From Chloroflexota bacterium (GTDB taxonomy: Bacteria > Chloroflexota > Dormibacteria > CF-121), in NCBI GenBank assembly GCA_005880605.1, contig VBIS01000161.1, positions 1 through 32,882 of the forward strand: a DNA stretch of 32,882 nt. Reading direction: 5' to 3'. The notes beneath the pieces were generated by a model that was not told where the DNA came from, did not search any database, and saw only the letters and a list, made by a program, of their open reading frames with translations. Made by a program: the position numbers and the translations under genes. Positions 11,120 through 13,835 of the stretch are shown here, piece after piece; positions within the stretch are counted from its first letter, which is position 1; each line of letters begins with the position of its first letter.

Positions 11120-11201
11120 GCACTCTTAGACGCACGCGGCTAATCGGATATTCGTAACGATGTCGCGCCCAGGTGACGCCCGGGCTACGCGGCGCTGATG
11201 A

Positions 11202-11297
11202 GTGCGCTCCGGCGTGGAAAAGCGCGCGGTAACCAGCGCGCTCCGGCGTGGAAAAGCGCGCGGTATGAGCGCGCTCCGGCGTGGAAAAGCGCGCGGT
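11202..11297. repeat. Tandem hairpin repeat cluster 1 (3 units, 33-34 bp period)
   Basis: GTGCGCT/GCGCGCT/GCGCGCT - CCGGCGTGGAAA - AGCGCGC at 11202-11227, 11236-11261 and 11269-11294. Confidence 0.95.
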
Positions 11298-11300
11298 TCG

Positions 11301-11720
11301 TTACGTGATGCGATGAACTCGCGGTAGCCCCGGCGGGGGGAATGTGGGCAGATCGGCTGGCCCGCGGCGCTCGAGTTCCTGTCGGAGGGCGGCGGTTTCC
11401 AACACCAGCCGCTCGACGTCGATCGTCATGCAACGTGGCCGGTAGGCTTCTAGCTTGGCGAGCCCGTGGCCGAGCTTGGCGACGGCGCCACGCCAGTTGC
11501 CGCGCCGCCAGTGGTAGAAGCCAACCCCGACCTGCAGGATGCCCTGATAGAGGTATCGAACCGCGTCCGGCTCGTGGATCCAAATGCCCTCGAGCGTCTC
11601 GTGCTGCTCGAAGAACTCCTGCCGGTTGAACTCGTCGATGCCATGGAGCAGAGCATCCGACGGGGGGTCGTCGCATCGGGCAGTGCGGCGCGGCGCCGTT
11701 TTCTTCGGGTGGACGCTCAT
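11301..11720 (-). CDS. DUF309 domain-containing protein
   Basis: GIDEFNRQEFFEQHETLEGIWIHEPDAVRYLYQGILQVGVGFYHWRRGNWRGAVAKLGHGLAKL matches the DUF309 core; internal ATG at 11720 preferred. Confidence 0.85.
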   Translation of the reverse strand: MSVHPKKTAPRRTARCDDPPSDALLHGIDEFNRQEFFEQHETLEGIWIHEPDAVRYLYQGILQVGVGFYHWRRGNWRGAVAKLGHGLAKLEAYRPRCMTIDVERLVLETAALRQELERRGPADLPTFPPPGLPRVHRIT

Positions 11721-11742
11721 CGGGGATCGGCCGATGCGCCCG

Positions 11743-12969
11743 TCAGGCCGGGCTCTGGTTGTTGGCGAGCGAGAGCTGGGACTCGTCGCCATCGGGCGAT
11801 GCGCCCGGCAGCTCCAGGTAGAAGGTTGTGCCCTTGCCCTCGAGGCTGTTCGCCCAGGCGCGCCCACCGTGCGCTTCCGCCACCCGGCGAAGGAGATAGA
11901 GGCCGAGGCCCTGGCCGCGGTCGGGTTGCTGCTCGGCCAGCGGGCCGAAGAGGTCCTCGAGCCTGTCGGCCGACATGCCGGGACCGTCGTCTTTCACGAT
12001 TAGCTGAAAGCGGTCGTTGCTCGCCTGCCGGAGGCGAAGCTGCACCACGGTAGCACTCAGAGCGTGCTTGAACACGTTGTGGAGCATCTCGTCCAATGCG
12101 GCCTCGAGTAAGGTGGCGTCGCCCCACACGTCCGCCTGGGTGTCGAGCTGGAGCCGCAGCTCCATGCCGATCCCGGCCATCCGCTCGCGGATCCGTCGTG
12201 CCGCTTCCTGGGCGACGCCATTGAGGGAGACGCGGACGGTGAACGCCAGCTCGAGGGGAAGACGGGAGAGCAGGAGCACCTGGTCTGCGATCCGCAGCAG
12301 CGTCTCTGATTGCTGTGCGAGCCGCTTGGCGACCAGTGGCATCTGGTTTGCGGGGACTTCGTTGTTACGCAGCATGTCTGCATAGCCCCGCAGGATCGCG
12401 AGCGGTTCTTTGACTTCCTGCGACGCCATGCGGACGGCCGAAACTGGGGTCCGCGACTGGCCGTTGGCAGGCGTCGAATCCTCGCGCAGCCGTGGGGCGA
12501 GCAATCCGGCCACGACCAGCAGCACGTCCTGGTCCTCCGGAGAAAAGACCCGGGTGCCTTTCCCCAGTACCGCAATGGTCCCGGCGAGGTCGCCGGTCTT
12601 ACGCCGCCAGCTGGTACCCAGGTAGCTCACGATGCCGAACTTCGCCCGCATTTCGAGGCTCTTGAAGGGCTGTCGTTTGCTCGCGTCCAGAATGTTGAGG
12701 ACCTCACCCACGGTCTCGTCTTCGGCGCTCGCGAAGGTGGACTCCAGCGGCAGTTGGAGCCCGCGTTCGATCCCCGGGCCGCTCTCGACCACGGAACCCA
12801 TGATCTCCAGCGTGTCATCGTCAATCTTGCCGAGAAAGGCGGCGCGGCCATCGAGCGCCTGGACCAGGCAGGCCAGGGCGTGATCGATGAGATCGGGGAG
12901 GGGCCGATCGAGATTGGCGACCACCAGGCGGCGGACCACGCTGAGGGGTGACTGGGGGTCAGGGCTCAT
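11743..12969 (-). CDS. GAF-type sensor histidine kinase-like protein with degenerate H-box
   Basis: GAF-like N-terminus; HisKA-like ASQEVKEPLAILRGYADML (H replaced by Q); HATPase boxes DEMLHNVFKHA, DDGPGM, GQGLGLYLLRRVAEAHGG. Confidence 0.85.
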   Translation of the reverse strand: MSPDPQSPLSVVRRLVVANLDRPLPDLIDHALACLVQALDGRAAFLGKIDDDTLEIMGSVVESGPGIERGLQLPLESTFASAEDETVGEVLNILDASKRQPFKSLEMRAKFGIVSYLGTSWRRKTGDLAGTIAVLGKGTRVFSPEDQDVLLVVAGLLAPRLREDSTPANGQSRTPVSAVRMASQEVKEPLAILRGYADMLRNNEVPANQMPLVAKRLAQQSETLLRIADQVLLLSRLPLELAFTVRVSLNGVAQEAARRIRERMAGIGMELRLQLDTQADVWGDATLLEAALDEMLHNVFKHALSATVVQLRLRQASNDRFQLIVKDDGPGMSADRLEDLFGPLAEQQPDRGQGLGLYLLRRVAEAHGGRAWANSLEGKGTTFYLELPGASPDGDESQLSLANNQSPA

Positions 12970-12995
12970 GTAGGCGCGCCCACGGTTATAACAGT

Positions 12996-13057
12996 AAGCG
13001 GCCCCGGTGTGGAAAGGCCGCGTGTCATAAGCGGCCCCGGTGTGGAAAGGCCGCGTG
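12996..13057. repeat. Tandem hairpin repeat cluster 2 (2 units, 33 bp period)
   Basis: GCGGCC-CCGGTGTGGAAA-GGCCGC at 12998-13021 and 13031-13054. Confidence 0.95.
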
Positions 13058-13072
13058 CCATGTTCTTAGAAT

Positions 13073-13835
13073 TTGCCAGCATTGGCTGAGGTATCCAACG
13101 GACGCGCGAACCTGCACCTGCACACCATCTTCAGTGACGGTGAACTCGAGCCGGCCCAGGTTGTGGAAGCCCATGTCGCCGCCGGCTTCACTGCCATCGC
13201 GCTAACCGACCACGACACGCTGGCGGGGATCGACGCGCTTGGCCGCCTCGAGGGACGTCGGCTGCGGATGATTGCCGGCGTGGAGCTGTCAATCGAAGAT
13301 GAGCCGGCTGGCGGCGGCTGGATTCAAGGTGAATTGGGATGATGTGCGGGCGCGCGCGCGCGGCAATGTGGGCAAGCCACACATCGTCGCCGCCATCGAG
13401 GCGGCACAGCCGGGGGTTGCGCGCGAAGAGCTCTACGCCGTGATGGGCCCCGGTGGGGCGGCGCACGTGCCCCGGGCAAAAGAGATGTCGCTGGATGAGG
13501 GCGTCGACGTGATCGCAGCGGCGGGCGGCGTGACCGTGCTGGCGCATCCAGGCGTCTACCGTTACGTGGCCGATCTCGAGGTGCTGTTTCGAACCTGCGC
13601 CGTGGCCGGCGTCCTCGGACTGGAGGTCACCTATCCGCAGGCGCCCGATGATCCCTACGGGCCCAAGAGTGCGGCGTTGATGGAGCGCTTCGCGAAGGTG
13701 GCCGCATCCTATGGATGGGTCGCGACTGGCGGCGACGACTTCCACGGGCCGCAGGTGACGCCGCTGATTCGGCTGGCGGGCTGGACGGCGACGCCGGCGA
13801 CCTGCGTCGACGAGCTGCTCTCCCGCCGCAGCTAG
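13073..13835 (+). pseudogene. PHP-domain phosphoesterase (YciV/TrpH-like), interrupted near 13300
   Basis: Frame 2: NLHLHTIFSDGELEPAQVVEAHVAAGFTAIALTDHDTLAGIDALGRLEGRRLRMIAGVELSIED. Frame 3 continues: MSRLAAAGFKVNWDDVRARARGNVGKPHIVAAI..VTVLAHPGVY..GDDFHG. Confidence 0.78.

Follow-up and report, generated by a model that had tools for sequence, protein, structure and literature searches.

Two hairpin arrays beside a DUF309/histidine kinase gene pair

We analyzed a 32,882-nt stretch of contig VBIS01000161.1 from a Chloroflexota bacterium (Dormibacteria, CF-121; the whole stretch is called the window), in which five hairpins share the 12-nt loop CCGGYGTGGAAA. Three lie at 11202–11294 and two at 12998–13054, all on one strand. 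A sequence-only reading of the window had described them as hairpins with a common loop and cluster-specific stems, which the exact loops, spacings, and stems bear out. The features at the locus are as follows.

11202..11227, + strand: hairpin copy 1, stem GTGCGCT/AGCGCGC, loop 11209–11220; covariance model match 11199–11230
11236..11261, + strand: hairpin copy 2, stem GCGCGCT/AGCGCGC, loop 11243–11254; covariance model match
11269..11294, + strand: hairpin copy 3, stem GCGCGCT/AGCGCGC, loop 11276–11287; covariance model match
11301..11867, − strand: DUF309 protein gene (PF03745), outside the element; stop codon TTA at 11301–11303
11743..12969, − strand: HisKA/HATPase histidine kinase gene (by domain assignment), outside the element
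12998..13021, + strand: hairpin copy 4, stem GCGGCC/GGCCGC, loop 13004–13015; covariance model match
13031..13054, + strand: hairpin copy 5, stem GCGGCC/GGCCGC, loop 13037–13048; covariance model match

The loops of cluster 1 are exact copies of CCGGCGTGGAAA (starting at 11209, 11243, and 11276) and those of cluster 2 are exact copies of CCGGTGTGGAAA (13004 and 13037), with repeat spacings of 34 and 33 nt in cluster 1 and 33 nt in cluster 2. No further loop match was found in the whole window at up to one mismatch, where shuffles gave an expectation of 0.41. The arms of the window stems are complementary and agree with the earlier description except in copy 1, where GTGCGCT/AGCGCGC contains one T-G pair. 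The loop had been described as a 12-nt loop; its sequence is exact, but single-hairpin folds indicate that it can itself form CC/GG around a GGYGT pentaloop, with AAA bulged out. Joint folds of the window arrays were no more stable than shuffled sequence. The kinase start (12969) is separated from cluster 2 by ~27 nt, as proposed, whereas cluster 1, said to be 4 bp from the DUF309 stop, has its last stem 6 nt away, the repeat unit ending at 11297.

A fixed loop within variable, paired stems

Across 72 distinct arrays, the repeat unit spans ~30–36 nt with a 26-nt core, ATNA-GC(N4)[C/T]-CCGGYGTGGAAA-[G/A](N4)GC-GTG(T). Of these arrays, 67 have the flanking A at −1 and 71 the G at +1. About ten stem types occur, one type per site, chiefly GCGAGCC/GGCGAGC (16 arrays), GCGCGCC/GGCGCGC (15), GCCGCCC/GGGCGGC (13), and GCGGCC/GGCCGC (7). 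In a set of 38 sequences, stem pairing reached 94.4% versus 75.7% in shuffles, and the covariation score was 0.388 compared to 0.111 in shuffles and less than 0.13 in slid alignments. Both sides change at five stem pairs, and G-U is nearly absent (2 of 342 stem cells).

An invariant loop on a variable but paired stem might be expected of transcribed hairpins that bind a protein via the CCGGYGUGGAAA loop (a GGA-in-loop site) and regulate the neighboring gene, the set forming a regulon under selection. The paired stem changes had indeed been taken as the mark of selection on RNA structure. We consider this explanation improbable, and the claim is unsupported as it was stated. Among 52 copies at ten orthologous or reference sites there are 31 substitutions, 11 of them in stems; none is compensated, two lead to a T-G pair, and the copies at locus E are visibly decayed. 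Since stems are constant within a site and 0 of 11 stem substitutions are compensated, the covariation arises between subfamilies and not by in-place RNA evolution. The near absence of G-U and an orientation bias that is not significant (see below) also argue against selection on RNA, as does an Rfam search that matched no family at gathering or lenient thresholds. This negative, together with a test for GTAG and CGTC tags described below, agrees with the earlier statement that the hairpins match no named family. More generally, covariation among paralogous repeat copies can mimic the signature of a conserved RNA.

Distribution across genomes

The host draft genome (G000; 2.44 Mb, 82% complete) contains 29 copies of the exact loop, versus 3 for a reversed-pattern control, and the arms are paired in nearly all of them. 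A covariance model built from 38 family members detected ~38 copies in this genome. Within the genus, whose genomes are drafts of 75–95% completeness, 13 of 15 were positive, with copy numbers ranging from 0 (G002, G013) to 41 (G001). A 400-genome sample of the phylum yielded five positives, all among its six members of the genus; the 394 sampled genomes of other genera gave no covariance model match with filters that lose weak matches. In a scan of GTDB, named matches with family stems came mostly, among the matches listed, from soil Chloroflexi metagenome-assembled genomes (CF_106, CF_57, CF_30, CF_63, and others). The listed matches outside this group were single and mostly lacked family stems, as chance would predict when 257 Gb are scanned for a motif of 16 bases. 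A blastn search of plasmid and phage collections with the cluster 1 array found no match. Viral carriage was also considered and rejected, as the eight viral contigs examined, each with the exact 16-base core, showed no family-like stems or flanks.

The copy-rich genomes form two groups in the species tree (G000 and G001; G003, G004, G009, G010, and G012), and their neighbors have 0–5 copies. This pattern suggests two bursts.

Genomic context

Genes were called with a home-made model, relative to which 58 of 63 clusters could be positioned. Codirectional genes flank 34 of these, divergent genes 15, and convergent genes 3, and the other 6 overlap a called gene. All six overlaps are at a gene end, though 87.6% of the DNA is coding. 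Copies are frequently found a few nucleotides from stop and start codons, a position that would suit regulatory hairpins and, for GC-rich hairpins right after a stop codon, intrinsic transcription terminators at gene ends. Terminators are hardly credible here, however: no T run follows either arm in the copies listed, there is no enrichment in convergent gaps or at gene ends, and some copies, cluster 2 among them, sit in promoter gaps between divergent genes. Regulation of neighboring genes finds little more in these data, as clusters show no gene-arrangement preference (34/15/3 versus 94/35/10 for gaps generally, P = 0.85) and no significant orientation bias at codirectional genes (12 same versus 22 opposite, P = 0.12). 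The neighbors are unrelated housekeeping families (20 neighbor genes scanned), with no recurrent gene family apart from orthologues.

Empty and filled orthologous sites

At the cluster 1 site, G001 has a single copy, and the hairpins are absent in G003, G008, G010, G012, and others. The insertion replaced the last 3–4 codons of the DUF309 gene, whose product ends in VHRIT* (G000) or VHRIP* (G001), compared to VHRIIDPT*, VHRIIRRV*, or similar in relatives without it. The cluster 2 site likewise holds a single copy in G001; it is empty in G004, G009, G010, and G012 (GGTTATAACATGCCCACC) and occupied by other sequence in G003, G005, G007, G008, and G011, with GC-rich hairpins in several species. 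The proposal that the two clusters bracket a two-gene unit therefore does not hold: because DUF309/kinase orthologues miss one or both clusters, the bracketing is coincidental and the hairpins are no feature of this gene pair. Beside cluster 2 (window 12969–13090), GCGCCCACGGTTATAACA is nearly invariant across the genus and resembles a divergent promoter serving the kinase and the gene after it.

Another insertion is found at locus A, a gap between two ABC transporter genes, where CA-TCATC-G corresponds to CA-TCATC-AGCGCGCC CCGGTGTGGAAA GGCGCGCGTG-TCATC-G in filled genomes, 30 nt having been inserted. Filled sites occur in G000, G001, G004, G005, G007, and G012 (four tandem copies in the last) and empty ones in G002, G008, G010, G011, and G014. 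The locus A flanks track the species tree, and the patchiness requires three precise losses or four gains. Such patchy presence in sister species is a further point against a regulatory RNA. In gap c253a, copies are oppositely oriented in different species, and at locus F (L020, G000 C148:12057) a hairpin has inserted within the opening codons of a gene for a thiolase. There, the GTG of the hairpin 3′ tail appears to give a new in-frame start.

Arrays and nesting

Wherever a cluster has several copies (17 of 17 cases), they are arranged head-to-tail, and unit number varies. A search of 15 genomes found four exact nests (three in G012, one in G004) representing two stem combinations. In the first, seen in G012 and G004, the loop of a GCGAGC hairpin is interrupted at CCGGT^GTGGAAA by a GCGGCC hairpin. 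In the second, seen in G012 and with a variant in G003, a GCCGCCC hairpin interrupts a GCCGCC(A) hairpin loop at CCGGC^GTGGAAA. Because nests of the GCGGCC-in-GCGAGC type could have been propagated as one composite unit, we count the four nests as two events. They are suggestive, though not proof, of two independent events at one loop position (CCGGY^GTGGAAA).

Interpretation as probable small mobile elements

Given that the hairpins are dispersed, have empty orthologous sites, are patchily present, and nest within one another, they are probably very small, non-autonomous mobile DNA of the repetitive extragenic palindromic (REP) class, restricted to one genus of soil Chloroflexota. The sequence-only reading had offered a structured RNA, a protein-binding hairpin array, and a REP-like mobile or insulating element; of these three options, the REP-like mobile element is the one favored by this evidence, and regulatory RNA is not.

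In such a scheme, one DNA strand would fold into the hairpin, and an enzyme or the replication machinery would recognize the invariant loop together with the flanking ATNA and GTG. A hairpin copy would then be joined into a new site, where arrays could afterwards lengthen or shorten through slippage. Stem pairing would persist since only folding copies propagate, single copies might later decay in place, and survivors would be found mostly where insertion harms little, at stop/start junctions and gene ends. A more specific proposal, which we think rather unlikely, is an unrecognized mechanism in which the folded single strand is recognized via the invariant loop and DNA is joined at CCGGY^GTGGAAA. 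Joining inside the loop would explain why two stem combinations are nested at one position and why stems are free to vary.

Alternatively, no dedicated enzyme may be involved, and replication could spread the hairpins through slippage and template switching where the DNA folds, arm-to-arm copying making new paired stems at once. This alternative contests only the enzyme step, since it too treats the element as a mobile hairpin, and its likelihood overlaps that of the preferred explanation; we regard it as possible but doubtful. Nearly all stem changes are C-G to G-C swaps, with no G-U intermediates, and tandem arrays vary in unit number, both in favor of this alternative. Moreover, adjacent copies of one array in L090 have the stems CCCCGCC/GGCGGGG and CCCCACC/GGTGGGG, a paired stem change within a single array, and no transposase was found. 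Template switching alone, however, fails to account for dozens of unlinked sites or for two nestings at an identical loop position.

Several observations weigh against interpreting the hairpins as mobile elements. No transposase or other mobiliser linked to them was found, although one could be missed in drafts that are 75–95% complete. TnpB is present in G004, G010, and G012 only and is missing from G000 and G001; it was rejected as the mobiliser since its presence is uncorrelated with copy number. Likewise, no Y1 (IS200/RAYT) transposase (PF01797) was detected in 18 genomes of this draft quality (75–95% complete), with five control genomes positive. The 5-bp duplication TCATC is clean at locus A only, and the family-wide target-site duplication signal is weak and derives partly from the locus A orthologues. 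The commonest stem, GCGAGCC/GGCGAGC, is incompletely paired, its two central positions being adjacent G-A mismatches, and the fold of this type is no better than that of shuffles. Sheared G-A pairs in tandem on the loop strand could act as a stabilizer of the GCGAGC type, but energy models give no support for extra stability from this source. Finally, the locus A cores are identical over 26 nt in five species with flanks that are ~81% identical (P ~0.003–0.006 per pair). In-place (purifying) selection or repeated re-insertion is a possible source of this identity at some sites. Together with locus c253b, where cores are perfectly conserved and flanks differ by ~20% between species, it is also the type of conservation that an RNA or protein-binding site would predict.

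Comparison with known hairpin repeats

REPs have been defined broadly as extragenic, palindromic, short, multi-copy sequences with a common motif (PMC12306157). The hairpins conform to this definition in their rare coding overlap (6 of 58), in their palindromic 26-nt core and 30–36 nt unit (~14–40 nt in the definition), and in a shared motif that reaches 41 copies in one draft genome, with the qualification that the GCGAGC type is paired only in part. With GTAG REP/REPIN-RAYT systems (PMC3116915; PMC3733652) they share 20–40 nt palindromes that are multi-copy and nearly all extragenic, stem subfamilies, sharp copy-number differences between related strains, and presumed non-autonomous mobility. 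In contrast to those systems, none of the 72 arrays has the GTAG tag at its 5′ end and 2 have it at the 3′ end, the Y1 transposase that accompanies REP/REPIN was not detected in the 18 genomes, and the copies are head-to-tail (17 of 17) where REPINs form inverted (HH/TT) doublets. CGTC REPs (PMC3733652) are similarly short and palindromic, and no transposase dedicated to them is known, but they have an 8–9 bp stem starting with two A-T pairs and a 4–5 nt loop. The hairpins studied here instead have a 6–7 bp stem that is GC-only at those positions and a loop of 12 nt, or of 5 nt when the inner CC/GG is paired, with CGTC near one (3′) end in 3 of 72 arrays and TGTC in 18 of 72. Tag, loop, array orientation, and RAYT absence thus set the family apart from both GTAG and CGTC REPs (PMC3733652).

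Miniature inverted-repeat transposable elements have terminal inverted repeats and a constant target duplication, the latter compared here to the 5-bp TCATC at locus A and a weak family-wide signal. Small dispersed repeats of Nostoc are reportedly very small, apparently mobile chromosomal sequences without a known transposase, and occur in a host phylum other than Chloroflexota. Mitochondrial hairpin elements, including sponge RHE, Allomyces double-hairpin elements, and yeast GC clusters (PMC2800124), are also short, intergenic, dispersed hairpins whose presence varies between close relatives, with tandem insertion and no identified enzyme. Sponge RHE, which are mitochondrial, have conserved stems and variable loops (PMC2800124), the reverse of the Chloroflexota hairpins. 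Indeed, a fixed loop on a variable stem is the opposite of the conservation seen in most described hairpin repeats. The family was not matched by any counterpart in the collections and literature searched. REPs are usually attributed to RAYT transposases, whereas these hairpins behave as mobile without a detectable Y1 transposase, and their filled and empty sites offer a clean comparative system for the spread of ~30-nt hairpins.

Additional hairpin families

A second dispersed hairpin family, of the CCCTCCCCC..GGGGGAGGG type (L023:2575–2606), has exact matches in all 15 genus genomes, many of them 31 nt long, including G002 and G013, which are both without the first family. A simple pattern search did not find it in the window. 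At site c253b of G001, a hairpin of this type fills the gap that holds a CCGGYGTGGAAA hairpin in G000, and the GC-rich hairpins of G003 and G008 at the window cluster 2 site are related to it. In addition, L090:5240–5345 and L034 contain a divergent subfamily, GGGGCCCC[G/A]C[T/C]..CCRGYGTGRAA..GGGGAG, which forms a three-copy array between divergent genes and whose neighboring copies differ by paired stem changes.
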